Positions 4,962 through 29,142 of a stretch of DNA of 32,312 bases are shown here, piece after piece; position 1 is the stretch's first letter; each line of letters opens with the position of its first letter. This DNA comes from an uncultured Pseudomonadota bacterium (GTDB lineage Bacteria > Pseudomonadota > Gammaproteobacteria > Methylococcales > Methylomonadaceae). The stretch covers positions 1 through 32,312 of the forward strand of contig CAIUWU010000223.1 in the NCBI GenBank assembly GCA_903902945.1, given 5' to 3'. A model generated the notes under the pieces. It was not told where the DNA came from. It was given only the letters and a program-made list of their open reading frames with translations, and searched no databases. The position numbers and the translations under genes were made by a program.

Positions 4962-5223
4962 AGTTAGATCAATTTTCAGCATTTTAGCCATCGAGACGAA
5001 GCAGAATTGTTTTGATTAGCCTGATTACAAGAGAACATTTGATAACACTATGATATTACTCGCAATTAAGCCTACCCTGTAAAACGCCTGCTTTTGACAC
5101 CGTATCACGGCCTTGCTTGGATCTGGTTTTGGGTAAACAGTCCTGTGAATTCTGCAGCGGAAAATATATCCTTGATGCCCTAAAACGAATACACTCAGCC
5201 GCCCTCAACCCGATGATGCCTTG

Positions 5224-6399
5224 ATGCGAAACACCGATAGACTTCAACAGGTACAAACACCGATTATCCCCATGATCGCCAATTGGACCCGACAAACTCC
5301 GGGGACACTGTCACTCGGGCAGGGGATGGTGAGCTATCCGCCACCGGATGCTGCAATGCAAGCCGCACTGGAGTTCGGTAGGTTGGCGGAGAATCATCTT
5401 TACGGATCGCCGTTGGGTCACCCCAAGCTGCTGGCGATGATCCAGACAAAATTACGGCAAGACAATCACATCTGCGACCAAGCTTATCAAGTCATGGTAA
5501 CGGCTGGTTCGAATATGGCTTTTTTAAATATCATCATGGCCATTAGCGATCCAGGTGATGAAATCATTCTGCCGCTGCCCTATTACTTTAACCAGGAAAT
5601 GGCAATTCAGATGCTGGGATGCGTTGTGGTGCCGGTCCCGGTGGGTGAAGATTACCAACTCGATCTGCCAGCCTTGCAAGCCGCCATTACCGAAAAAACC
5701 CGCGCGATTGTCACCGTGTCGCCGAATAATCCTTCGGGAGCCGTTTATCGGGAAAATGATTTGCGCGCGGTCAATGCCTTGTGTCAACAACGCGGTCTTT
5801 ACCATATCAGCGATGAAGCTTATGAGTATTTTACCTACGAGGGTGCCGCACATTTTTCACCGGCGAGTCTGGCCGATGCTAACGGACACACGATTAGTCT
5901 TTATTCCTTATCCAAAGCCTATGGCTTTGCCAGTTGGCGGCTAGGTTATGCGGTTTTTCCGGAAGCATTACTGCCGGCGATGTTAAAAATTCAGGATACC
6001 AACTTGATTTGTCCGCCCGCCATTACCCAAGTAGCGGCGATCGGTGCGCTTGCGGCAGGCGCCGATTATTGTCGTCAACAATTACCGGCACTTGCCCTGA
6101 CCAGACGCCATCTACTGCAACAACTGCAGACAATCGCTGATATTTGTCAGGTGCAAGCGACTACCGGCGCTTTTTATTTATTACTGAAAATCCGCACATC
6201 ATTAAGCGATCTTGAACTGGCCGAGTCTCTGATCAAACAATACCAAGTGGCTGCTATTCCCGGCTGTGCATTTGGCTTGCAAGGCGATTGTTATCTGCGA
6301 ATATCCTATGGCATGTTAAGTCCGACACAAGCAGGCGAAGCGGTCCAGCGCCTGATCACCGGCTTACTTGGATTATGTCGCAAAAACCCAGCAACCTGA
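5224..6399 (+). CDS. Class I/II pyridoxal-phosphate aminotransferase
   Basis: Fold-type I PLP enzyme of the AspC/aromatic aminotransferase group; exact amino-donor not determinable. About 391 residues from the ATG at 5224 (a TTG directly before it is also in frame). Visible signatures: YGSPLGHPKL near residue 60, PNNPSG (cofactor-contacting Asn) near 175, SDEAYEYF (Asp that holds the pyridine nitrogen) near 205, SLSKAYGFASWRLGY with the Schiff-base Lys near 237, and YLRISYG with the substrate-carboxylate Arg near the C-terminus. It stands alone between mutS (divergent) and the photolyase operon (convergent), so context does not reveal the pathway. Confidence 0.9.
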   Translation: MRNTDRLQQVQTPIIPMIANWTRQTPGTLSLGQGMVSYPPPDAAMQAALEFGRLAENHLYGSPLGHPKLLAMIQTKLRQDNHICDQAYQVMVTAGSNMAFLNIIMAISDPGDEIILPLPYYFNQEMAIQMLGCVVVPVPVGEDYQLDLPALQAAITEKTRAIVTVSPNNPSGAVYRENDLRAVNALCQQRGLYHISDEAYEYFTYEGAAHFSPASLADANGHTISLYSLSKAYGFASWRLGYAVFPEALLPAMLKIQDTNLICPPAITQVAAIGALAAGADYCRQQLPALALTRRHLLQQLQTIADICQVQATTGAFYLLLKIRTSLSDLELAESLIKQYQVAAIPGCAFGLQGDCYLRISYGMLSPTQAGEAVQRLITGLLGLCRKNPAT

Positions 6400-6452
6400 G
6401 TTTGTGGATAAATCCCCCGCAGATTTGCGGCTCAAAGCCGTGACAGGCCGCT

Positions 6453-7982
6453 TTACAATTGCTCGATCTGCTGCAGGATAGAGGCCGCATGGCTACTGAT
6501 GGCATGCTGTTCGGCAAGCGGGAAACGCGCCAGATTCCGATACACCATCCCCAGACGCGGATTGCTTGCCAGCTGTTGACGATGGCTGATGAAAAAATTC
6601 CAATACAAGGCATTGAACGGGCAGGCATCCTCGCCGGTGCGTTTTTTCTTGTCATAGCGGCAGGCCTGACAATAGTCACTCATGCGATCGATATAAGCAG
6701 CACTGGATACATAGGGCTTGGTGGCCAGCAAGCCGCCATCGGCAAACTGACTCATGCCCAGCGTATTGGGTAGTTCGACCCATTCGAAAGCATCGATATA
6801 AACCCCTAAATACCAGCGATGCACTGCGCTCGGCGCCAATCCGGCCAGCAGCGCAAAGTTGCCGATCACCATCAGGCGCTGGATATGATGGGCATAGGCG
6901 TAATTCAGTGACTGCCCAATCGCAGCAGCCAGACAATTCATCCGGGTTTCACCGCTCCAAAACCAGGCAGGCAGGGGCCGCTGATGCCCCCAATGATTCT
7001 GATCCAGATAGCCGGGCATTTTTGCCCAATACACGCCGCGCACATATTCACGCCAGCCCAGAATTTGCCTGATAAACCCTTCGCTGGCTGCCAGCGGCAC
7101 CGTACCATCCCGCCAGGCTGCCTCTGCGCTGGCAACCACTTCCTGCGGACTGAGCATCTTGGTGTTGAGAGCGAATGACAGCAATGAATGAAACAGACGC
7201 CAGCTATGGCGGGTCATGGCATCCTGAAAGTCACCGAAATAGGGCAGCGCCTGCCGGATGAACTGATCCAGCTGCTGCAATGCTTGATGGCGATTCAGCG
7301 GCCAACGGCAATCCGCGGCATCCACGGCGCCAAAACTCGGCACGCCGGCAACGACAATTTCCCGCCAAAGCGCCGAATGATTATGACGAGGCCGCTGATC
7401 GTAAGGGATAGCAGGCGCACCGGGCCAGCGCTTACGATTGTCATGATCGAAATTCCATTCTCCGCCACAAGGACGCTGTTTATGGTCAAGCAGTACCTGA
7501 TGCTTAAGTCGCATCCGCCGATAAAACATTTCCATCAGCCAATGCGGTCGTGAGCCGAACCATTCCGCTGCTTGATGGCGTGAACTATAAAAATGTTCAG
7601 TATCGCAAGCCTGGCTAGAGATGGATAAACGGCGGCAATACTCTTGCAACTGCTGATCCAGTCGCCATTCGTCCGGCATTTGATATTCAAACCGTTGAAT
7701 CTGATAGCGTTCAATCAACGCATCAAGGTTAGCAGTTAGCGATTGCCGGTTATCGGTAGCAGCGATGCTGAAATAATGCAGCTTATGACCTTGCCGGCTG
7801 AGTTGCTCTGCAAAATCGCGCATGGCGGCAAAAATGGCCAGGATTTTCTGGCCGTGATGCAGCACATAATCGGTTTCCTGGCGAATTTCCATTAAGGTAT
7901 ACAGCACATTAGCGTCGGCTTCTGTAAACCAGCTATGTAAGGGATTGAGCTGATCACCCAGAATCAGCCGCAGGGTAGTCAT
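6453..7982 (-). CDS. Iron-sulfur bacterial cryptochrome/photolyase, PhrB-type (6-4) photolyase
   Basis: Light-dependent flavoprotein that repairs UV photoproducts; the FeS-BCP branch typically reverses (6-4) lesions and carries a 4Fe-4S cluster plus a lumazine-type antenna. The 509-residue protein starts TLRLILGDQLN (Rossmann antenna domain) and ends with the FAD-binding helical domain, including YAYAHHIQRLM at 362-371. Counting residues, the four cluster cysteines fall at C350, C438, C441 and C454, the same positions that I recall for Agrobacterium PhrB. Its ATG overlaps the stop of the DUF2256 gene by 4 bp, indicating translational coupling. Not a classical CPD photolyase; substrate specificity is from family knowledge. 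Confidence 0.93.
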   Translation of the reverse strand: MTTLRLILGDQLNPLHSWFTEADANVLYTLMEIRQETDYVLHHGQKILAIFAAMRDFAEQLSRQGHKLHYFSIAATDNRQSLTANLDALIERYQIQRFEYQMPDEWRLDQQLQEYCRRLSISSQACDTEHFYSSRHQAAEWFGSRPHWLMEMFYRRMRLKHQVLLDHKQRPCGGEWNFDHDNRKRWPGAPAIPYDQRPRHNHSALWREIVVAGVPSFGAVDAADCRWPLNRHQALQQLDQFIRQALPYFGDFQDAMTRHSWRLFHSLLSFALNTKMLSPQEVVASAEAAWRDGTVPLAASEGFIRQILGWREYVRGVYWAKMPGYLDQNHWGHQRPLPAWFWSGETRMNCLAAAIGQSLNYAYAHHIQRLMVIGNFALLAGLAPSAVHRWYLGVYIDAFEWVELPNTLGMSQFADGGLLATKPYVSSAAYIDRMSDYCQACRYDKKKRTGEDACPFNALYWNFFISHRQQLASNPRLGMVYRNLARFPLAEQHAISSHAASILQQIEQL

Positions 7983-8128
7983 GATTTATCCTGTGTTGAA
8001 CGATGGCGCCGGCAACGCTCTGAGCAATATTTGACTTGCTGCCAGACTTTAGCCCATTTTTTGCGCCAGACCATTGGCCGGCCACAACAGCTGCAAAGTT
8101 TGGATGGTAGACATGCTTTTTGATGCAT
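7979..8128 (-). CDS. DUF2256 zinc-ribbon-like mini-protein
   Basis: A 49-residue protein from the ATG at 8128 (MHQKACLPSK); an in-frame TTG at 8167 would add 13 residues that do not look like the family. It carries CSCCGRP and YCSERCRR, two Cys pairs compatible with a small metal-binding knuckle, and the WRKKWAKVW basic-aromatic segment typical of DUF2256. This family is commonly found beside FeS-type photolyases; here it overlaps that gene by 4 bp (ATGA). Function is unknown; cofactor insertion or chaperoning of the photolyase is only a guess from this coupling. Confidence 0.82.
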   Translation of the reverse strand: MHQKACLPSKLCSCCGRPMVWRKKWAKVWQQVKYCSERCRRHRSTQDKS

Positions 8129-8240
8129 CAAAATTTCAGATGGTTTTTTTAGGGTCTGTAAACACAAAGCCGGAGCAGGCTGATGACAATTAACCGCCTT
8201 GAATATGCCTGATGATTAGACAATGGCAAGTCTGATAAGC

Positions 8241-8269
8241 CTTGGTAAGCTTTGGCGAGCTTTGCCAAG
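8241..8269 (+). other. Hairpin in the 5' leader of the exonuclease gene
   Basis: CTTGG pairs with CCAAG and, inside, AAGCT pairs with AGCTT around a 6-base loop, with a small internal bulge. It ends 44 bp before the preferred ATG. It could be a leader structure or part of a divergent regulatory region (8129-8313); no U-tract follows, so it is not a simple terminator. Confidence 0.3.
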
Positions 8270-8313
8270 CCAACCAACGTCATCTCAATACACCCAAAAC
8301 AGGTAACCGCACT

Positions 8314-9675
8314 ATGCAAGCCTTAGCCTTTGTCGATCTGGAAACCACTGGTACATCAGCGACCCAAGATTCAATTACCGAGATTGGCATCGTACTGGTA
8401 GATGACGACGGGGTCAGAGAATGGAATCAGTTATTGCATCCAGAGATGCGGATTCCATTATTTATCGAACAAATGACCGGTATCAGCAACGCGATGGTGG
8501 CCAAGGCCCCGACCTTTGCACAGGTTGCCACAGACATCGAAGCTCTACTGGAAGGTCGCTTGTTTATCGCCCACAACGCTCGCTTTGATTACAGTTTCCT
8601 GAAAAATGCCTTCCAGCGTATCGGCAGGGACTTCAAAGCGCAGGTACTGTGTACGGTTAAATTATCTCGGGCGCTCTATCCGCAGTATCAACGCCATAAT
8701 CTCGACAGCTTGATCGAACGCCATCAACTCACAGTCAATGATCGCCATCGCGCACTGGCCGATGCGCAACTGCTTTATCAGTTCTGGCAGCGGATCAATC
8801 GCGAATTCTCCGCTGATCTGATTGCCGATACGGTCAAAAGCCTGCTGCGACACCCCAGTCTGCCGTCACAACTCGATCCCCATCTGCTGCACCAATTACC
8901 CGAAACGCCCGGCGTTTACCTGTTTTATGGCGATAACGATTTACCGTTGTATATCGGCAAAAGTGTCAATATTCGCCAGCGGGTGTTGTCTCATTTTGCC
9001 GCCGACCATCGCCACGGCAAGGAGATGGCTTTATCGCAACAAACCAAGCGTATCGACTGGCTGGAGACCGGTGGCGAACTGGGCGCCTTATTGACCGAAG
9101 CCAGACTGATCAAGCAAATGATGCCGATACATAACCAGCGTTTGCGTCGCAAAAATGACCTATGCGCCTGGCAATTACAGCAGCAACAGCAACAGCTGAT
9201 ACCGCATCTAAGCTGGGCCAGTGATCTGGATTTTGGCAAACAAGATAATTTGTATGGTCTGTACAGTAATCAGCGTGACGCTCAAAAGTCCTTGCGTCAT
9301 CTGGCCGAACACCATCAGCTCTGTCTGGGCATCCTCGGCCTTGAAAAACTCGGCAGCGGCAAACCCTGTTTTGCCTATCAGCTCAAACGTTGTCGAGGTG
9401 CTTGTGTCGGCAACGAATCCGCCCAGCAACATGCCACACGCTTATTAACTGCCATGCAGACACTGAAACTGGCCAGTTGGCCTTATCGCGGTGCGATAGG
9501 CATTCGTGAACAAAACGATGTGCATGTGATTGACCACTGGTGTTATCTGGGTACCGCTCACAGCGCTGAACAGTTGCAGCAATTACGGGCACAAGGTCGA
9601 CCGGCATTTGATCGCGATACTTATCTGACTTTGCTCAAAGCCTTACAACACAGCGAGGTCATCGAATTGGATTAG
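8314..9675 (+). CDS. DnaQ-like 3'-5' exonuclease fused to GIY-YIG (UvrC/Cho-type) endonuclease
   Basis: Predicted DNA-repair nuclease of 453 residues. The N-terminal half is a DEDDh exonuclease: Exo I FVDLETTG near residue 7, Exo II HNARFDYSFL near 91, and Exo III HRALADAQ near 147. A GIY-YIG domain follows (GVYLFYGDNDLPLYIGKS near residues 201-218, with YIGKSVNIRQRV), then a Cho-like C-terminal part with CFAYQLKRCRGACVG. The ATG at 8314 is preferred over an upstream TTG at 8242 because it sits directly before the exonuclease domain and has AGGT upstream. It is divergent from the photolyase/DUF2256 pair, so the locus groups several repair functions. The fused architecture is known in Proteobacteria, but its damage substrate is not well defined. 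Confidence 0.9.
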   Translation: MQALAFVDLETTGTSATQDSITEIGIVLVDDDGVREWNQLLHPEMRIPLFIEQMTGISNAMVAKAPTFAQVATDIEALLEGRLFIAHNARFDYSFLKNAFQRIGRDFKAQVLCTVKLSRALYPQYQRHNLDSLIERHQLTVNDRHRALADAQLLYQFWQRINREFSADLIADTVKSLLRHPSLPSQLDPHLLHQLPETPGVYLFYGDNDLPLYIGKSVNIRQRVLSHFAADHRHGKEMALSQQTKRIDWLETGGELGALLTEARLIKQMMPIHNQRLRRKNDLCAWQLQQQQQQLIPHLSWASDLDFGKQDNLYGLYSNQRDAQKSLRHLAEHHQLCLGILGLEKLGSGKPCFAYQLKRCRGACVGNESAQQHATRLLTAMQTLKLASWPYRGAIGIREQNDVHVIDHWCYLGTAHSAEQLQQLRAQGRPAFDRDTYLTLLKALQHSEVIELD

Positions 9676-9854: not shown

Positions 9855-10385
9855 TCACTTAAAGCTGATCTCACCAATCGCTATCAGCTTGTCGAGAAAC
9901 GCAGCGTCGGGGATGTCTTGTTCTGCGTAAGCGGCAACAGTGACACCGGCAGCAGCAAACATTTTATCGACCGCCTGATTGATCAGCACATGACTGCTGT
10001 GCTGCTTTTTGCGTAAATAGATCACTTGCTTGATGCCTACCTGAATAATCGCCTGGGCGCAGGTATTACAGGGAAACTGGGTGGTATAAAGCCGGGCCCC
10101 CTGCATGTCGTGGGCCATACAGTTATAAATCGCGTTCTTCTCGGCATGCACCACATAAGTATGCTTGGAATGCAGCAAGTCACTGTCATCTTCATCCTGC
10201 CAGAACTGCGGATCGTCATCGTCGCAACCGACAGGCAGGCCGTTATAACCAATACCAATAATCTTATGGTTGGGGTCGACAATACAGGCGCCGTTCTGGG
10301 TTTTGCTGTCTTTGGAACGAAACGATGACAACAGAGCGATAGCCATAAAATAACTATGCCAGCTCATGTAGTTGTTTTTTTTCAT
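9855..10385 (-). CDS. dCMP deaminase (deoxycytidylate deaminase family)
   Basis: Zinc-dependent deamination of dCMP to dUMP, feeding thymidylate synthesis. From the ATG at 10385 the protein has 176 residues; a longer frame to 10421 adds 12 residues unlike the family. The zinc site is complete: HAE at 80-82 (His ligand and catalytic Glu) and PCNTC at 105-109 (two Cys ligands). The stretch MSWHSYFMAIALLS and GIGYNGLPVGC resembles the DCTD-like branch that includes phage and eukaryotic enzymes more than the plain tRNA/cytidine deaminases. It lies 74 bp downstream of the TonB-dependent receptor gene on the same strand. The 179 bp between this gene and the convergent exonuclease show no feature I can support. 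Confidence 0.9.
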   Translation of the reverse strand: MKKNNYMSWHSYFMAIALLSSFRSKDSKTQNGACIVDPNHKIIGIGYNGLPVGCDDDDPQFWQDEDDSDLLHSKHTYVVHAEKNAIYNCMAHDMQGARLYTTQFPCNTCAQAIIQVGIKQVIYLRKKQHSSHVLINQAVDKMFAAAGVTVAAYAEQDIPDAAFLDKLIAIGEISFK

Positions 10386-20625: not shown

Positions 20626-21000
20626 AATTCTCCCCACCATGAATAGTCGACATTTTGAAAAGCGAGTACTCGCAACCGAAGAGAGGTACTTGTATGAGCA
20701 CGAAATCGACCAACAGCAAAGGCAGCTACACAAGGCATAGCACCGAATACAAACAAGAAAGCCTGAACTAGCGACGTAGATTGGCGTAAGCAATTGGGGT
20801 TGAACGAATCGCAACTCTATGCCTGGTGCAAGCAGTCCGAACACACCCAAAGTATCAGTGAACGAGCAGTCATTCTAACCACAGAAAATGCTCACTTAAA
20901 ACGCCAATTGGCTCAGCAAGCGGAGGAGTTGGCGATCTTAAAAAAATGCGGCGACAGACTTCGCTCAACAATCAGTGAATTCCCTTATTAAAATGATGGC
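20623..21000 (+). mobile_element. IS3-family insertion sequence remnant (left end only)
   Basis: The likely left terminus starts TGAAATTCTCCCCACC at 20623 and leads into the orfA remnant. I found no copy of the reverse complement (GGTGGGG...TTTCA) before 21205 and no orfB, so the right side has been lost. Boundaries are approximate; the terminus call depends on the IS3 habit of starting with TG. Confidence 0.5.
20694..20991 (+). pseudogene. Decayed IS3-family OrfA (transposase helix-turn-helix subunit)
   Basis: From ATG 20694 (behind GAGAGG) the frame reads MSTKSTNSKGSYTRHSTEYK and then stops at 20769-20771; after a short deletion the protein resumes in another frame at about 20794 as LGLNESQLYAW, followed by a leucine-zipper-like stretch (ENAHLKRQLAQQAEELAILKK). 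The A-run near 20940 carries an inserted T, so the usual AATYF ending is read as CGDRL. No OrfB (DDE) sequence follows. This is a dead remnant. The remaining 20992-21204 is AT-rich and shows nothing else I can support. Confidence 0.82.
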
Positions 21001-21204
21001 AACCGGCGATTTATCCAACAAATCACGTTTTTACAGAAATAACTTTTAATGAATTATGGTGTATTGGTCTGGCGCCATGATATATTTACAAATACACAAA
21101 ATCACATTTATAGCGATTCAAAACAATCAACGATATTTTAAAACTGGTCCTTAAAACCCAAGATTAAAAAATACTCGTCTTATTTATTAGTAACAGGCCA
21201 ATTA

Positions 21205-21429
21205 ATGAAATTAAAACTTCCTTTTTTTATTTTTTCGACACTTTCTTCAGGATTAGCTCAGGCAGGTTATTCTCTTTACGAAGGGCAATATGGTGAATTA
21301 AATGCAGGTTTGGTTGCTGAAACTGCTTTATTTGCAGAAGGTAATAATCAGGGTGGTGGTGCGCAAAAAGAAGGATTAACTGATCAATTCTTGGATTTGA
21401 ATATAAAACCTTACTTAGAGGCGCTTTGA
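21205..21429 (+). pseudogene. N-terminal fragment of a frameshifted outer-membrane beta-barrel protein
   Basis: ATG 21205 opens MKLKLPFFIFSTLSSGLAQA, a clear Sec signal peptide, then a mature start (GYSLYEGQYGELNAGLVAET) that looks like the first strands of a porin. The frame ends at TGA 21427-21429. The next frame (-1) starts without any ribosome site at 21426 and continues the same kind of strand pattern, so one base appears to have been lost near GCGCTTTGAAT. Together the pieces would give about 460 residues. A sequencing error or programmed -1 shift are alternatives; the site is not a classic slippery heptamer. Confidence 0.75.
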
Positions 21430-22592
21430 ATACCTTTAAAGGTAGTAAGTTATATGGTGGTTTTAGTTATTCTTATACCAGTTCTTTAGGGCATGATCCA
21501 TCTGGCTATACAAGACGAGGTGTTATAGATTACACCAGAGAAAGTGATTATGTTAGTCTGGGTGGATATAAAGATTACCGTAATTTGTTTGCAACAGAGG
21601 ATTTATATGCTGGCTGGAATTCAGGTAAATTATTTGATGCCAACGAAAATATAACATTCGACATTTCAGGTGGCCGACAAAAATATAATATAGGATCGGG
21701 GTTTCTGATTAGTTACGGTGCCGAAAATGGAGCAAATAGAGGGGGTGGATATTTATGGCCTCGTACTTCATTTGATAATACCGTGATTGGTAGAGTCAAT
21801 GTGCATGATACAAAATTAGAAGGGTTCTATCTTGAAACCAGACCTCTGAATCCAGCTGATAAACGCAGCTATTCTGGTGTGAATATTGAACATAAGATTT
21901 CAGATACATCAAACATTGGTTTTAGTTATATCAACACTCAGAATAAACGTTCTTTGCATGACGATGGTACAAATATTTCACTAGGCATTCAAAACGTTGA
22001 TAACAATACCTATGATGCTCGGTTTGTTTTTTCACCGCTAGAGAATTTTCAGTTTAGCTCTGAATATGCTTATCAGGTAAATACAACTACTGTAACTTCC
22101 GACGTAAACGAAAAAACTAAACATAATGCGTCAGGTGGTTTTGGACAACTTGAATATAAAAGAACAGACCTCTACTTGCAACCGGCATTAAGTTATCGGT
22201 ATGCCATTCAAGATCAGAATTTTGATGGCATGTCACCTGGTATGACTAACTGGGGAACCTGGTTTCAGGGCGAAATATCAGGCATGTGGATGTTATACAA
22301 TACAAATTTAATTACACACATGGGTAAGTTAGTATTAAATCCTACAGTAGACATTACTACAAACCTGATTTACTTCAACTATACCTTTCTTGATCCATCT
22401 GCATTTAGTCAAACCTCAGGTAATTACGGAAGTGAGATTAATTTAATCACGGACTGGCAGTACAATGAAACGGTTAAGTTTACCGCCAGCCTTGCAACAT
22501 TAGTACCTGGTGAAGGTGCCAAAGAATATATGGGCGGTGATGCAAACCAAACATGGGTGCAAGGGATGTTATACGCTTCTTTCAATTACTAG
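21426..22592 (+). pseudogene. C-terminal part of the frameshifted outer-membrane beta-barrel protein
   Basis: A 388-residue frame, starting at a TTG that overlaps the previous stop by 4 bp, of alternating polar/aromatic strands (KLYGGFSYSYTSSLG ... FRFVFSPLENF-like strands ... WVQGMLYASFNY) ending in an aromatic residue, as outer-membrane barrels do. It has no signal peptide of its own, so it could not be exported unless joined to the upstream fragment. I do not recognise the transported substrate; porins of the alginate-export or short-chain amide type are possible relatives. The region is AT-rich compared with the flanking chromosome. The ion-channel gene follows 75 bp later, suggesting a former envelope-transport pair. 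Confidence 0.7.
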
Positions 22593-22667
22593 ACATAAAT
22601 TATAATTTTGACTTTATAAAAAATTATTTGATTGTTAATAAGTCATGGCAAATTAATAGCGTACAAA

Positions 22668-23693
22668 ATGAAATCTAAAAACATCTTATTCGGCATTCTG
22701 GCTTTCTTTATATTAAGTCTAAATGTCGCAAATGCTAACAATATAAAAGTAGGCAGCATGAAGCCTGCGACAACAGTTACTCCTGGCGCACAAATCGTTA
22801 CTATTGGATTTTTTCCAATATCCATTTACGGCTTAGATATATCCAACAACACATTCTACCTAGATACCTATATGTGGTTCAAATGGAAAGGCGATATAGA
22901 CCCTACCGAATCAATGGAATTGGTTAATGCAGTTGATAAATCTTCTATGGTAAAAGAAGTATTACTAGACACACCAAGTACTCTGTCTGATGGAAATAAA
23001 TATCAGATCATGCGCATTGAGGGTCATTTTTTTCAATCATTTCTTCTCAATGACTTTCCTCTAGATAAACATAAACTCAGTATCTTGGTTGAAGATAGCA
23101 CCCATGGCTTTCAACAGATCAGTTATGAAGTTGACCAGATATCTACTGGCATTGGTGACCAGTTATTCATTCCGGGTTGGTATATAAATAAATGGAACGC
23201 CACCTCTTTGATTCATGATTATGGTACGTCATTTGGTGAAAGTGATAGTCAAAATGCCGGGGGGTCTGTGTATTCAGCAGTAAGCTTTGGAATTAATATT
23301 TCTCGCCCTTCAAGTTATTTTTTCTGGAAACTGTTACTTCCGTTAATTATCGTTATTTCAGCATCCTGGGTTAGTTTACTGCTGGATTATAGTCTTATAG
23401 AAGCCAGAACAGGAATGCCGGCTACTGCATTGCTTACTACCGTTTTTTTACAACAAGGATACTCAGATAACCTTCCTCAGGTAGGTTACTTGGTACTAAT
23501 GGATAAAATATATGTTTTGGCTTACATACTCATCGTTGTATCGCTTATAAGAGCTATTGCGACGGCATATTTTGATAATGACCATTCTAATTCAATCAAG
23601 ATAAGAAAAGATGACAGAACTATTCTGGCCACTCAAGTTATTGTATTTATAGGTTATATTATATTTATTGTTTTAAACACAAACGGTATCTAA
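22668..23693 (+). CDS. Prokaryotic pentameric ligand-gated ion channel (Cys-loop receptor homologue)
   Basis: Homologue of ELIC/GLIC, inner-membrane channels with a periplasmic ligand-binding domain. From ATG 22668 it has 341 residues (an in-frame TTG at 22632 is rejected because it buries the signal peptide MKSKNILFGILAFFILSLNV). The extracellular beta-sandwich includes DTYMWFKWKGD and the Pro-loop FLLNDFPLDKHKLSILVED, which takes the place of the Cys-loop without cysteines. Four membrane helices follow: M1 from SYFFWKLLLPLIIVISASW, M2 ARTGMPATALLTTVFLQ preceded by a Glu, M3 from YLVLMDKIYVLAYILIVV, and M4 TQVIVFIGYIIFIVL. It lies in an AT-rich accessory patch. Ligand and ion selectivity are unknown. 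Confidence 0.85.
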   Translation: MKSKNILFGILAFFILSLNVANANNIKVGSMKPATTVTPGAQIVTIGFFPISIYGLDISNNTFYLDTYMWFKWKGDIDPTESMELVNAVDKSSMVKEVLLDTPSTLSDGNKYQIMRIEGHFFQSFLLNDFPLDKHKLSILVEDSTHGFQQISYEVDQISTGIGDQLFIPGWYINKWNATSLIHDYGTSFGESDSQNAGGSVYSAVSFGINISRPSSYFFWKLLLPLIIVISASWVSLLLDYSLIEARTGMPATALLTTVFLQQGYSDNLPQVGYLVLMDKIYVLAYILIVVSLIRAIATAYFDNDHSNSIKIRKDDRTILATQVIVFIGYIIFIVLNTNGI

Positions 23694-23768
23694 AAACTCT
23701 TGAATTTTTTATTTTCAAGAACCGTGTTTTCGTTTAAGCGAGTTTGCGTAAAATTAGACTTTGTTGCA

Positions 23769-24267
23769 TAAGCGCTTAACAATAAATAGCCGTGCAGTAA
23801 AACAGCAAGGTTTTGAACAAAATTTGCGCCGCAAACCTCGAATCGTTCGGCTTGGACCAAGCGAGGCAAAGTCAATGCCGGCGGCACAGCGCATCAATGT
23901 GATCGACGCGCTGCTGTGATCGGGGCGACTACTGTTGCCCCACTTTGGCAGAGCGTAAATGGCCTGCTTTCTGATGGCGTTGATCGAACGCATGCAAGCC
24001 GATGGTGGTGATTGTGCACAACGCATCCATTCACACCACCAAACAGCTGAAACCTTATTGGGATTTATTGGAAGAGAAAGGCATGCGATTTTATTTTCTG
24101 CCTACCTATACACTCCTGAGTTGAATTGAATCGAATTGCTGTGGCATAAGATGAAATATGAATGGCTACCTTTCAAAACATATACGCTGCATGAACTGCA
24201 ACAGGCCATTGATGAGATTGGCGTGGATTTGCCTCTAAATACACGCTAATTTTTTGCTAGGCGCTTA
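23769..24267. mobile_element. Internally deleted IS630-type element with terminal inverted repeats
   Basis: Imperfect 17-bp inverted repeats bound the element: TAAGCGCTTAACAATAA at 23769-23785 and the reverse complement of TAAGCGCCTAGCAAAAA at 24251-24267 (14 of 17 match). Each end begins with TA, fitting the TA target duplication of the IS630/Tc1 group. The element is about 0.5 kb, less than half of a normal IS630 copy, and holds only a broken transposase. Confidence 0.7.
23800..24249 (+). pseudogene. IS630-family transposase remnant
   Basis: Pieces of one DDE transposase occur in different plus-strand frames: a region resembling YAWTKRGK near 23850, VVIVHNASIHTTKQLKPYWD from 24005, FYFLPTY near 24100, and after stops and shifts IELLWHKMKYEWLPF near 24133-24170, ending at TAA 24247-24249. 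The second catalytic Asp that normally sits in the VxxDNAS motif is His here, and several stops interrupt the frame, so it cannot be active in cis. Confidence 0.82.
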
Positions 24268-24337
24268 CCTGATTACTTATTTGTTCAATTATCGTAAATG
24301 CCTTTTGCATTTGACGAAAAGGGGTTTACTTTTATCC

Positions 24338-24733
24338 TCAATAATTCTGACAAACATCAATGACAATTGTTACTGCTTGTATATTGCCAATTGCAGGATT
24401 ATCTTTCAAATAAGCTACTATACGTTCAGCCAGTGACACCTCTTTTTTAAGACACGCCTCAAGAGATAATGCGCTAACAACACCCGCTATAAAACCTGTA
24501 CATAAACCAGCACTTAAATTCTGTTTTTTACTATCAGTTCCCAGCCATAATGATCCTGTATTTTTATGCCATGCCAAATATTCTTCGCAATTCTCCTGTA
24601 ACCAGACACCGTCTTTAGTTTCTGCGTTAGCTTTCATCAAGGTATTGACGGCTGTTTTATCTATTCGCGCCGGCTCAGCCAAACAAACAGCCGCTTTAAA
24701 AAAAATTAAAACTACAAAAAACACTTTCTTCAT
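24338..24733 (-). CDS. Rap1a/Tai-like putative immunity protein (secreted, four Cys)
   Basis: A 131-residue protein with a signal peptide (MKKVFFVVLIFFKAAVCLA). The mature part has the pattern of the Rap1a/Tai family of type VI secretion amidase-immunity proteins: Cys at 49, 78, 94 and 128, the LCTGFIAGVVSAL segment, and a YLKDNPAIGNIQAVTIVI helix. No effector (Tae/Ssp-type amidase), Hcp, VgrG or other secretion component is visible in the window, so it looks like an orphan. It sits divergently 160 bp from the PQQ dehydrogenase gene and right beside the IS630 remnant, consistent with transfer. Other periplasmic roles are possible because the domain is widespread. Confidence 0.7.
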   Translation of the reverse strand: MKKVFFVVLIFFKAAVCLAEPARIDKTAVNTLMKANAETKDGVWLQENCEEYLAWHKNTGSLWLGTDSKKQNLSAGLCTGFIAGVVSALSLEACLKKEVSLAERIVAYLKDNPAIGNIQAVTIVIDVCQNY

Positions 24734-24799
24734 AATTAATAATAAACTTAATTAATGTTATGGATATTTAATTTTTTACGATTTTATGTTTTGAAAATT

Positions 24800-24849
24800 A
24801 TTTGCATTTTTGATTTGCATTAATTCTTTAAACGCAAAGAGTATATACT
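24800..24849 (+). promoter_or_regulatory. Candidate promoter and direct repeat for the PQQ dehydrogenase cassette
   Basis: Two exact copies of ATTTGCATT (24800-24808 and 24813-24821) start 13 bp apart. A -10-like TATACT lies at 24844-24849; the matching -35 position (24821-24826, TAATTC) is poor and touches the second repeat, an arrangement expected of an activator-dependent promoter. The start codon is 44 bp further on. All of this is inferred from spacing. Confidence 0.35.
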
Positions 24850-24893
24850 GAATTACATAGATATTATCCAATCATTATTGGGAGTTTTGATTT

Positions 24894-26807
24894 ATGACAT
24901 GTAAAACAGTGCCAGTCTATTCTCAAAATCAGAATAGTACTCGTTACGAACTCAACCCTTCTCAGGTGAAAACCGCTATTGCCATATTACTCGCCTTATC
25001 TTGTTTAAATACTGAGGCGGCAGTCATAGCAGGGACCGGAGCGGGTTTTGGCACACAAGGTAACTGGACCAGTCATGGTGGTACGCTGGATGGCATCCAC
25101 TATAGTGAGCTAAATGATATTACGACGGCTAATGTCAGTACCTTAATTGAAGAGTTTTCTTTTCCAACCAATGTCAACGGCAGCCACATGGGCACACCGT
25201 TGGTGAACAACGGCACATTGTATGCCGTCACACCGTTCCCGAATAATCTGGTAGCTTATGATCTAAGTACCGGTGCGCTTAAATGGACTTTTATACCCAA
25301 AATCCGTGGCTATGCATTCGGCGTTAACTGTTGCGATACGGTCAATCGCGGCCCGTCTTTCGCGACCCATGCAACCTACCCTAATGGACTGATTGTCTTT
25401 AATACCCTGGATAATACAACGGTAGCAGTCGATGCCTTGTCAGGCAAACAAGTCTGGCAAACAACGCTGGCTGACCCTACAACCGGGGTCACCACCAATG
25501 GCGCAACCTTAGTAGTACCCGATAAATCAAGACCCGGCGAATCGCTGGTGATCACAGGCAGTTCCAGCGGTGAAATGGCCGTCAGAGGCTGGGTTAAAGC
25601 GCTGGATTTAGCAACCGGCACCTTGAAATGGACAGCATACACAACCGGCTCTGATGTCGACGTTAAAATCAATCCAACCACTTATAAGCCTTTTTACAGT
25701 AAAGATGCCGCAGGTGACCAAGGCATTAAAAGCTGGGAAGGGGGTGGCGACAAATGGCAACAGGGAGGCAGTTCGGTATGGGGTTATATCACTTACGATG
25801 CTGACACCGATCTGTTGTTCTATGGCACCAGCCAGCCGGGCGTTTGGAATGCTGATCAGCGTCCGGGAGACAATAAATGGGGCGCCTCGCTTTTTGCCCG
25901 TAAGGCTTCAACCGGCGAAGCACAATGGATTTATCAGGTTACGCCTCATGACCAGTGGGATTACGATGCGATCAGTGAAAGTATCCCTATGGATTTAAAC
26001 ACCCCCATTACAACCGCTTCAGGTTCTCATAGTAAGGTACTGATACACTTCAACAAAAACGGCTTTGCCTATACCTTTGACCGCCAGACCGGGGAAGTCC
26101 TGTCAGCACCAATTTTTGGCCCCAACAAACAATCCGTCACCTGGGCCGATTCTATTGATTTGACAACCGGTAAACCGGTACCGCCTCAGACCAGCAAAGC
26201 AACCACGGAAGGCAGTACAACAACCGGTATTTGTCCTTCGGCAATGGGTATGAAGGGCTGGGAACCAGCAGCCTATTCACCCAGAATCAATACCGTTTAT
26301 CTGCCTGTTTTTAACCTGTGCATGAATTACCAGGGCCTAAAAACAGAATATATTGCCGGCGCGCCCTATATGGGTACCGATATGACAATTCTGCCAGGAA
26401 CCGCCTCTTTTACTTTTGCCGGCGGAGTCTTCAACATGGGGGAATTGGTCGCCTGGGATATCGCCACCAATAGCAGGAAATGGAATATCCCGGAAGTCAA
26501 ACCGATTTATGGCGGAATACTGGCGACTGCGGGTGATGTGGTTTTTTATCCTACACTGGACAATCAATTTAAAGCTGTTGATGCCAATAGCGGCGCGAAA
26601 TTATGGAATACCACGCTGGAATGCAGCTCAGTAGGCAGCCCAATTAGTTTCGTGAGTCCTAAAGATAACAAACAACGGATTGCCATTTTTTCAGGTGTAA
26701 GCTGGCTTGCAGGTGGTTTCACGGCCACTGGTAAACCCTGTCCGGGTAAAGGCGGCTCCAGCGTTGTCAGTGGCGGCGGCAGAGTCCATGTCTATAAACT
26801 GCCTTAA
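24894..26807 (+). CDS. PQQ-dependent alcohol dehydrogenase, divergent XoxF-like (lanthanide-type)
   Basis: Periplasmic quinoprotein predicted to oxidise methanol or another alcohol and pass electrons to a cytochrome c. The 637-residue chain has an N-terminal export signal after a polar stretch (TAIAILLALSCLNTEA, residues 28-42), then an eight-bladed propeller. Key residues: adjacent Cys 146-147 in NCCDTVNRG (disulfide over PQQ), Glu227 in SSGEMAVRG (metal ligand), Trp296 (stacks under PQQ), catalytic Asp356 and, two residues later, Asp358 in HDQWDYD, the extra Asp that marks lanthanide-dependent enzymes. Two deviations: Gln314 in GTSQP where MxaF/XoxF have the metal-ligand Asn (GTGNP), and Lys388 in FNKNG where they have Arg (FDRNG). 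It leads a tight three-gene cassette with a XoxJ-like protein and an unusual cytochrome c. Not MxaF; clade within the XoxF/PQQ-ADH family is unresolved. Confidence 0.9.
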   Translation: MTCKTVPVYSQNQNSTRYELNPSQVKTAIAILLALSCLNTEAAVIAGTGAGFGTQGNWTSHGGTLDGIHYSELNDITTANVSTLIEEFSFPTNVNGSHMGTPLVNNGTLYAVTPFPNNLVAYDLSTGALKWTFIPKIRGYAFGVNCCDTVNRGPSFATHATYPNGLIVFNTLDNTTVAVDALSGKQVWQTTLADPTTGVTTNGATLVVPDKSRPGESLVITGSSSGEMAVRGWVKALDLATGTLKWTAYTTGSDVDVKINPTTYKPFYSKDAAGDQGIKSWEGGGDKWQQGGSSVWGYITYDADTDLLFYGTSQPGVWNADQRPGDNKWGASLFARKASTGEAQWIYQVTPHDQWDYDAISESIPMDLNTPITTASGSHSKVLIHFNKNGFAYTFDRQTGEVLSAPIFGPNKQSVTWADSIDLTTGKPVPPQTSKATTEGSTTTGICPSAMGMKGWEPAAYSPRINTVYLPVFNLCMNYQGLKTEYIAGAPYMGTDMTILPGTASFTFAGGVFNMGELVAWDIATNSRKWNIPEVKPIYGGILATAGDVVFYPTLDNQFKAVDANSGAKLWNTTLECSSVGSPISFVSPKDNKQRIAIFSGVSWLAGGFTATGKPCPGKGGSSVVSGGGRVHVYKLP

Positions 26808-26825
26808 GTCTGACAAAGCAGTCTG

Positions 26826-27680
26826 ATGACCATGTTCACACAATGCAGAACGCGGACGCCTTATTCAGCACCAGTATTAATTATGGCTGCGGCAATGTTA
26901 TCAGTAGCGGTTTCAGTTCAGGCGAATCAGCCACTTCGCGTATGCGCCGATCCCGACAATCTGCCTTACTCCAATCAGCAGCAGCAGGGTTTTGAGAACA
27001 AGATTGCCTCGCTACTAGCCAAGGATATGCACAGAACACTTGCATACACATGGTTAAAGCAACGGCAAGGCTTTTTCCGGCAAACCCTGAATGCGGATCG
27101 TTGTGATGTCGTGATTGGGGTTCCAACCAGCCTGGATCTGGTTTTGACTACCAAACCCTATTACTGTTCAAGCTATATGCTGGTTAGCCGTAAAGATCGC
27201 ATGCTAAATATAAGCTCTTATAACGATCCGGCTTTAAAGGATTTAAAAATCGGCTTGCATGCCATAGGTAATGATGGCGCAAATTCACCGCCCGCAGTAG
27301 CGCTGGGTGATCATGGTCTGGCTGGCAATATTTATGGTTTCTCAATGTGGGGTAATGAGGGCGATCAAAACCCGCAGGGCTGGGTTGTTGATGCTGTTGC
27401 GGATGGCCGTATTGATGCCGCGATTATCTGGGGGCCATTTGCCGGATTTTTTGCCAAAAAACACGGTAATTTACTGCAATTAAGCCCCGCTCCTGTTGAT
27501 GAAAAAAAACCATCACTCGCTTTTGCATACAGCATTTCGATGGGCGTCAGAAAAAATGATCAGGCGTTTGCCAGCTTACTAGAGCGGAGTATCCGGCGGC
27601 AAAGCAAAACTATCAGAAAAGTACTAACCAGTTACCAGATTCCGTTTACCGAATCAGACGCCTGTTCTCCCGCTGCATAA
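26826..27680 (+). CDS. XoxJ/MxaJ-like periplasmic binding protein associated with quinoprotein dehydrogenase
   Basis: A 284-residue family-3 solute-binding-type protein 18 bp after the dehydrogenase stop. It has a signal peptide (VLIMAAAMLSVAVSVQA near residues 17-33), then PLRVCADPDNLPYSN, GFENKIASLLAKDMHRTL, CDVVIGVPTSLDL, KPYYCSSYMLVSRKDR, IGLHAIGNDGANSPP and DAAIIWGPFAGFFAKK, which are hallmarks of the quinoprotein-associated subgroup (XoxJ, MxaJ). These proteins are not thought to be transport receptors; structural work proposes a role in maturing or activating the dehydrogenase. Position right after the enzyme gene fits that. The Cys in CADPDN plus those at KPYYCSS and DRCDVV are typical. 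Confidence 0.9.
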   Translation: MTMFTQCRTRTPYSAPVLIMAAAMLSVAVSVQANQPLRVCADPDNLPYSNQQQQGFENKIASLLAKDMHRTLAYTWLKQRQGFFRQTLNADRCDVVIGVPTSLDLVLTTKPYYCSSYMLVSRKDRMLNISSYNDPALKDLKIGLHAIGNDGANSPPAVALGDHGLAGNIYGFSMWGNEGDQNPQGWVVDAVADGRIDAAIIWGPFAGFFAKKHGNLLQLSPAPVDEKKPSLAFAYSISMGVRKNDQAFASLLERSIRRQSKTIRKVLTSYQIPFTESDACSPAA

Positions 27681-27724
27681 GCAGCGGATCAAACAGCCAT
27701 CGTATTATTTATAGAAGGTACAAA

Positions 27725-28921
27725 ATGAAACTTAATCCAACTTTGTTTAAAAGCGGTCTGATACCGTTATTAGTTTTGATAAACGCCGGAACCTGCTGGG
27801 CGGCTGCCAGTCTGAGTCCTAGTAGTCAATCCATTACCGGAGTAGCCGGAAGTACAGTGACCTCAAAAACAATCACAGGAACCGGATTTACTGGCGCTAT
27901 TACATACACAGTTGCGACCGCTTTGCCAAATGGCCTGTCGATAAACAACAGCACAGGCGTTATCAGCGGCATACCCTCTATTGCACAAAAATCAACGAGC
28001 TACACAATAGCAGCAAGTGATGGAACAGCGACTGCAAGCACAAAAGTCAGTATCGCCGTTAATCCTGCACTGGCCCCCTCCAGCCAATCAATTAACATAG
28101 TTCTTGGCAATTCACTCACCACTACGGCTTTAACCGGAGCCGGTTTTGTCACTGCGCCTAGTTTTTCAGTATCGCCTGGCCTAGTTAACGGTCTGAGCTT
28201 AAACACAGCCACAGGTGTGATTAGTGGTAACCCCGCATCGACTTTAGCAACCACCACTTACACCATCACTGGCTCGGATGGTACTTTTAAAGCCACCGCC
28301 CAAACCAAGATTACCGTCAGCCCGCCGCCCCCCGCTATCTCACCTGCCAGCCAGACTATAGATGGTATCAGCAGAGGCACCACAGTTAATGGCGTTTTTA
28401 CAGGAACCAACGTTAACACCACGCCTTTTAGTGCAAGCAATTTTGGTGGCAGTGTGAGTTACAGTATCACGCCAGCATTACCTGATGGCTTAAGCATTAA
28501 TCCGACTACCGGCGTTATCAGCGGTATCGCCAAAGTACCTAAATTGGCAGCCGGCTATACCATCATCGCGAAAGGCGCTACCAGCGGTAATGCAACCGCT
28601 ACCTTATATCTGAATATTACTGATAATTGCATACCCGAAACTTTAGATTCGGCTAGTGAAGGCAGAAGAGCTTATTTACGGTTGAACTGTCAAAGCTGTC
28701 ATGGCGATAGTGGCTTGGGCGGGATGGGACCCAAAATCATTGGTCAAAATAATGTCGGTGAGCGCGTAACAATAGGCTCTTCGAGTCGTGGCATGCCGGC
28801 TTTCAAAGATTATATTTGTGGTAACGATATTAAAAATATGAACACATATCTCTACAATTTAGAACACGGACCAACCCCACCAAGCTTCAAACACTGGTGG
28901 GAAGCCAACCCAAGCCAATAA
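27725..28921 (+). CDS. Ig-like repeat cytochrome c, probable electron acceptor of the PQQ dehydrogenase
   Basis: A 398-residue secreted protein behind AGAAGG. After the signal peptide (ending about residue 27) come three putative-Ig (He_PIG/cadherin-like) repeats at about 29-113, 117-199 and 203-299, each with the core LPxGLSIN-x(2)-TGVISG (residues 68-82, 153-168, 252-267). A C-terminal single-haem domain follows: CQSCH at 322-326 and probable axial Met357 in SRGMPAF; Cys302 and Cys365 could form a disulfide. The haem domain (EGRRAYLRLNCQSCHGD) resembles the small class I cytochromes XoxG/MxaG that take electrons from methanol dehydrogenase, but those are not normally preceded by Ig-like repeats. 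It is 44 bp downstream of the XoxJ-like gene. The repeats may act as spacer, wall/outer-membrane tether or docking surface (inference). Confidence 0.88.
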   Translation: MKLNPTLFKSGLIPLLVLINAGTCWAAASLSPSSQSITGVAGSTVTSKTITGTGFTGAITYTVATALPNGLSINNSTGVISGIPSIAQKSTSYTIAASDGTATASTKVSIAVNPALAPSSQSINIVLGNSLTTTALTGAGFVTAPSFSVSPGLVNGLSLNTATGVISGNPASTLATTTYTITGSDGTFKATAQTKITVSPPPPAISPASQTIDGISRGTTVNGVFTGTNVNTTPFSASNFGGSVSYSITPALPDGLSINPTTGVISGIAKVPKLAAGYTIIAKGATSGNATATLYLNITDNCIPETLDSASEGRRAYLRLNCQSCHGDSGLGGMGPKIIGQNNVGERVTIGSSSRGMPAFKDYICGNDIKNMNTYLYNLEHGPTPPSFKHWWEANPSQ

Positions 28922-29142
28922 TCAAATAGCACCCAAACACAACGGACTCTTGCGGGCAGATAGGGATCAAGTCATGCCTAATTGGCGAGAACGACGCGAG
29001 CTGCTCAACCAACTGCCACTAGCATTTGATCAATGGTCATATTGAATTCTTCCCGCAAACTCGAATCGTTTTGAACGCTTTTAAAGACTAATAGCAAGCT
29101 ATAATGCCGCCTAATTTTTAGAAGCACATTGCAAACAATCCC

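Follow-up and report, generated by a model that had tools for sequence, protein, structure and literature searches.

The gene cassette

The window, by which we mean the whole stretch of DNA that was analysed (32,312 nucleotides), is an entire contig of a 2.3-Mb assembly, and the host can be called a methanotroph because its genome has two pmoA-family genes. The cassette consists of three intact open reading frames on the forward strand, spaced by 18 bp and then 44 bp. The first, at 24894–26807 (+), encodes a XoxF-like PQQ-dependent alcohol dehydrogenase of 637 residues. It has the PQQ β-propeller PF01011 (E=7e-54) and matches the methanol/ethanol dehydrogenase family TIGR03075 over nearly its full length (E=1e-141), with 473.2 bits as compared to a cut-off of 480.05. 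The second, at 26826–27680 (+), encodes a periplasmic binding protein of 284 residues that belongs to the XoxJ/MoxJ_2 family (282.5 bits against MoxJ_2 TIGR03871, cut-off 212.15), and its closest solved relative is XoxJ, 6onp. The third, at 27725–28921 (+), encodes a secreted cytochrome c of 398 residues, with a signal peptide, three He_PIG stretches and a Cytochrome_CBB3 match. Read from their sequences, all three proteins have a Sec-type signal-like N-terminus, and the first-pass annotation was right in describing three closely spaced, secreted genes on the same strand. Promoter and terminator scans gave signals no better than chance.

Over 20 independent loci share this order of genes, which is therefore more than chance. 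The conservation also bears out the earlier suggestion that the dehydrogenase is self-contained and has a cytochrome dedicated to it. Besides this enzyme, the host genome encodes a single PQQ dehydrogenase, which is a canonical XoxF5 with XoxJ behind it, and no MxaF was found in it.

A separate branch of dehydrogenases

By sequence, the solved structures nearest to the enzyme are those of XoxF2 (4mae) and XoxF5 (6dam and 6oc5). A fold search with its AlphaFold model (pTM 0.76, the active-site loops being of low confidence) gave XoxF2 4mae as the best match and XoxF5 6dam as the next. We built trees under the LG+C20 mixture model, and these correspond in part to the phylogenetic check proposed in the first-pass annotation: the enzyme falls in a clade of 22 sequences with 100/100 support, held on one side of the branch in 100% of the bootstraps, and with a long stem of 0.54–0.59. 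The clade is separate from XoxF1 (7o6z), XoxF2 (4mae), XoxF4, XoxF5 (6dam, 6oc5), MxaF (4tqo) and a XoxF3-like group, a separation that is relative to these named groups, as the tree does not settle the placement against several Gemmatimonadetes groups. The label of the XoxF3-like group is based on host range only (PMC10875860), and that of XoxF4 on the organism.

The XoxF3-like group, with members from Mesorhizobium, Rokubacteria, Acidobacteria and Methylobacter marinus, resembles the cassette in the order of many of its loci, where the dehydrogenase precedes XoxJ and a cytochrome c that is a distant homologue (~28–34% identity over the heme domain). Its enzymes, on the other hand, form a 100/100 clade of their own and keep Asn256, Arg326 and Asp388, and its loci often have further cytochrome-containing and large open reading frames downstream, with no Ig domains seen.

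Close relatives of the window enzyme, 49–72% identical, were found in 22 of 301 Methylococcales genomes, not counting the window's own, and the relatives are nearly always accompanied by the cassette. A wider scan of one genome per species (85,462 species) found carriers in Methylovulum psychrotolerans Sph1, Methylomonas koyamae, Methyloglobulus and other methanotroph MAGs, and more distant ones in Rhodospirillales MAGs, Burkholderiaceae MAGs and Novimethylophilus kurashikiensis. Among 369 genomes of the class, few of them methanotrophs, there were no strong relatives besides the window. A literature search, with subscription journals mostly outside it, gave no description of the enzyme clade or of the Ig-bearing cytochrome. 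The clade thus appears to be a distinct and apparently undescribed branch among the rare-earth methanol dehydrogenases.

Some loci depart from the common arrangement. In the basal members L083/L225 (Novimethylophilus kurashikiensis) and L076, the cytochrome follows directly after the dehydrogenase with no space for XoxJ. The dehydrogenase of L045 (G025, 7825–9642) has neither XoxJ nor a cytochrome beside it; of the loci with sufficient flanking sequence, this is the only one that clearly breaks the cassette. One genome (G086) has two copies of the cassette, L039 and L048, from different branches of the clade. In L051 (G080, 5100–8570) a dehydrogenase piece of 111 residues is followed by two open reading frames on the opposite strand and then by a piece of 483 residues, which resembles an insertion into the gene.

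The PQQ-metal pocket

We mapped the residues of the pocket onto the numbering of XoxF2 4mae. The enzyme has the eight-bladed PQQ propeller and the Cys-Cys ring of XoxF2 and XoxF5 (4MAE, 6DAM, 6OC5), and it keeps E227 (Glu172), D356 (Asp299), D358 (Asp301) and the vicinal C146-C147, but it is only ~38–42% identical to these enzymes and lies in a separate clade. The two active-site deviations given in the first-pass annotation are real but undercounted, since the pocket departs from that of 4mae at five positions or more: S225, S293, Q314, K388 and G455, i.e. Gly170Ser, Gly235Ser, Asn256Gln, Arg326Lys and Asp388Gly. The metal-ligand set Glu172/Asn256/Asp299 of XoxF enzymes is therefore incomplete, with Gln314 in place of Asn256, and of the PQQ-site feature that combines the Cys pair with Arg326 only Cys146-Cys147 is present, Lys388 taking the place of the Arg. 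Lys at this position is found throughout the clade and also in some Gemmatimonadetes enzymes. Because of these two features and its placement in the tree, the enzyme should not be filed under XoxF1–5. The C-terminal segment, too, is a different one in all clade members, which have a Cys where XoxF2 has Ser505. In MxaF this segment contributes to the active-site funnel, and a replaced segment or lid may change the access of the substrate.

The substitutions around the metal are coupled. Most clade members have Gln at the Asn256 position, and both Ser, at the 225 and 293 positions, are present in 19 of 19 Gln members. All 40 Asn members carry Gly at position 225 and only 3 of them Ser at position 293, and among the sequences compared the full Ser-Ser-Gln set is restricted to Gln members. 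A strict search for the Gln motif, with one exact peptide spelling, in 399 genomes of the phylum, few of them methanotrophs, matched the window only. It is conceivable that the cassette holds an ordinary extra methanol dehydrogenase that has undergone near-neutral drift and still oxidises methanol with La–Nd, the Ig domains of the cytochrome being a passive decoration. Every metal ligand but Asn256 is retained, characterised XoxF enzymes act on several alcohols (PMC8546591), and many clade members lack the Ig domain yet are paired with the same heme domain. A joint fixation of Gln and two Ser in 19 diverged sequences, as a set that is absent elsewhere, is unlike drift, and so is hard to combine with this explanation, as is the clade-wide exchange of the C-terminal segment with its new Cys; we consider it unlikely.

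In the table of solved MxaF and XoxF structures in PMC11845868, Asn256 or its equivalent coordinates the metal, and Asp301 is the lanthanide-specific ligand (PMC11845868). A Gln at the metal-ligand position could abolish lanthanide binding. In another reading, the enzyme would not use lanthanides: the altered site would hold Ca or some different metal, or the role would be one of sensing or regulation. Besides this otherwise invariant ligand the two positions near PQQ, Arg326 and Asp388, are also altered. This seems quite improbable to us, as every member of the clade alignment keeps Asp301, by which lanthanide enzymes differ from MxaF, and a dedicated cytochrome implies a flow of electrons. 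The lanthanide reading is supported by the whole invariant set, i.e. the equivalents of Asp301, Glu172 and Asp299 and the Cys pair.

XoxF1 (7O6Z) is known to carry a pair of changes, Asp172/Cys240, one in the loop that precedes the Glu ligand and one in the loop opposite; they reshape the PQQ-carboxylate contact and leave the overall lanthanide coordination unaltered (PMC8546591). By analogy, we read the pocket substitutions of the clade as a tuned, working site. A Gln would still be able to supply an amide oxygen ligand, and the likely outcome is therefore a shift in the metal preferred, in the redox potential of PQQ or in the range of substrates, rather than a lost activity. Membership of XoxF1 itself was considered and rejected: the window enzyme has Gly226 where the diagnostic Asp ahead of the Glu ligand sits, its substitutions are different ones, one residue away, and it lies outside that clade.

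The sequences L008 and L009, nested inside the clade, have Gly-Gly-Asn. When the Gln members were forced into one clade the topology was weakly rejected (p-AU 0.027), which speaks weakly against a single origin of the Ser-Ser-Gln set; between residues 199 and 294, L008 becomes locally more similar to the basal Asn members, and this weighs against a firm call. The Gly-Gly-Asn of the two sequences may be a joint reversal, or may come from retention or local recombination.

The cytochrome and its Ig domains

The He_PIG domains of the window cytochrome cover residues ~27–300 and are followed by a class I heme domain with one CxxCH, at ~302–398. The AlphaFold model has three β-sandwich domains in series (pLDDT mostly >90) and then the helical heme domain, and its fold matches are to cadherin- and titin-like chains, local and not over the whole length. 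He_PIG matches and predicted fold agree on three Ig-like domains, the number first reported.

The cytochrome gene lies directly downstream of the dehydrogenase in at least 26 clade loci. The heme domain of the window's cytochrome is ~40–56% identical to the others of the clade and 25–34% identical to those found beside XoxF3-like and Gemmatimonadetes enzymes. Like XoxG and cytochrome cL, the cytochrome adjoins the dehydrogenase gene and is the presumed electron acceptor. It differs from them by sequence profile: a profile of the clade heme domains against PDB sequences (E≤0.01) found no XoxG or cL, and the matches were heme domains of bc1 and cbb3 CcoP. The first-pass comparison with xoxF-J-G modules thus holds for the gene order only, since the cytochrome is no XoxG/MxaG homologue at the profile level, and the enzyme lies outside XoxF1–5.

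The neighbourhood check suggested at the same stage, for He_PIG repeats and a CxxCH domain beside PQQ dehydrogenases, showed that the combination recurs, and that the Ig domains are confined to one well-supported subclade. Other members examined have none, often with a Gly/Ser-rich linker in place. The number of Ig domains is 1 in L032–L034, L036 and L037 (the cytochrome of L037 is cut by a contig end), 3 in the window, 5 in L222, 7 in L035 and 16 in L221. The repeats are up to 81% identical among themselves in L221 and up to 78% in L222, which suggests that the arrays probably grow by duplication. The L221 cytochrome (G312:C4) has 1560 residues, with the heme domain at 9913–10206; the MAG is labelled Nitrosomonadales, and the bin may be mislabelled. 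An origin of the domains in another protein of the host was rejected, as He_PIG was found nowhere else in the window's genome than in this cytochrome gene.

Read from the sequences, the N-termini of the clade cytochromes resemble cleaved Sec signals and lack a lipobox, so there is no evident membrane anchor. On a plain reading, the Ig array would be a rigid spacer or an attachment stalk for the heme domain. The 16-domain form is estimated to be ~60 nm long, which exceeds the width of the periplasm. One could imagine the array as an arm that moves the heme domain off the dehydrogenase, the longest forms reaching the cell surface or beyond. We regard this as highly improbable, but if true, alcohol oxidation in the Ig-bearing methanotrophs could feed extracellular acceptors or partner cells.

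The 8.5-kb insertion

The cassette is part of an 8.5-kb insertion (20626–29142) between the genes of a HAD hydrolase and a beta-RFAP synthase, which are adjacent in seven genomes of the same genus. The insertion also contains two transposase remnants, an OrfA-type one at 20794–20991 (+; HTH_Tnp_1, weak) and another at 24002–24124 (+; DDE_3, weak). The GC content is ~35–40% in the first ~4 kb of the insert, ~46–50% in the cassette and ~49–54% in the flanks, so that the cassette is closer to the host in composition than the first 4 kb. No 10-mers, direct or inverted, are shared between the two insertion junctions. The window enzyme groups with enzymes of other genera and not with those of other cassette carriers of its own genus. 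This grouping and the insertion at an otherwise empty site point to a horizontal arrival of the cassette, and with the transposase remnants they agree with the earlier suggestion that it may have come in with an IS-rich patch. An assembly or binning artefact was rejected: the flanking genes match those of same-genus genomes in the same order (45–89% protein identity), and the insertion is internal to the contig.

Other genes lie in the insert beside the cassette. At 22632–23693 (+) there is a homologue of pentameric ligand-gated ion channels (ELIC/GLIC/GABA-receptor superfamily; phmmer against PDB, E ~1e-14). An outer-membrane-protein-like sequence at 21205–22592 (+) is split into two overlapping frames of 74 and 388 residues, neither of which has a Pfam match, and the longer one has no NCBIfam match. 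A small secreted protein at 24338–24733 (-) has a match to the Rap1a immunity family (PF18602), and no effector gene was seen next to it.

Function and significance

We find it probable that the cassette was acquired horizontally and encodes a periplasmic alcohol dehydrogenase that depends on a lanthanide and PQQ and belongs to a distinct XoxF-like clade, XoxJ serving as its accessory factor and a cytochrome of its own as the electron acceptor. Against this we count the TIGR03075 score, just under the cut-off, the Gln at the metal ligand with its possible loss of lanthanide binding, the low model confidence at the active-site loops, and the loci L083 and L076, where XoxJ finds no space between dehydrogenase and cytochrome. 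From the sequences we infer a module that works like XoxF-type alcohol oxidation, in which an alcohol would be oxidised to the aldehyde at the PQQ-lanthanide site and the electrons would pass to the heme domain of the cytochrome, held by the Ig array, and on to a membrane oxidase. The metal site would have been rebuilt as a unit by Asn256Gln, Gly170Ser and Gly235Ser, Arg326Lys and Asp388Gly being the changes close to PQQ. The enzyme would be accessory to the single canonical XoxF5 of the host, and its substrate may be one other than methanol.

For methanol dehydrogenase systems, the searched literature has no report of a partner cytochrome with an Ig stalk of variable length; several cultured methanotrophs have the cassette, without the Ig domains. 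In a family where the choice of metal is a current question, the clade is an additional, separate branch, and in it nature has exchanged an otherwise invariant metal ligand jointly with two residues of the pocket. With Gln in the branch and the standard residues in a lineage nested within it, the effect of Asn256 on lanthanide preference is therefore directly testable in natural enzymes.
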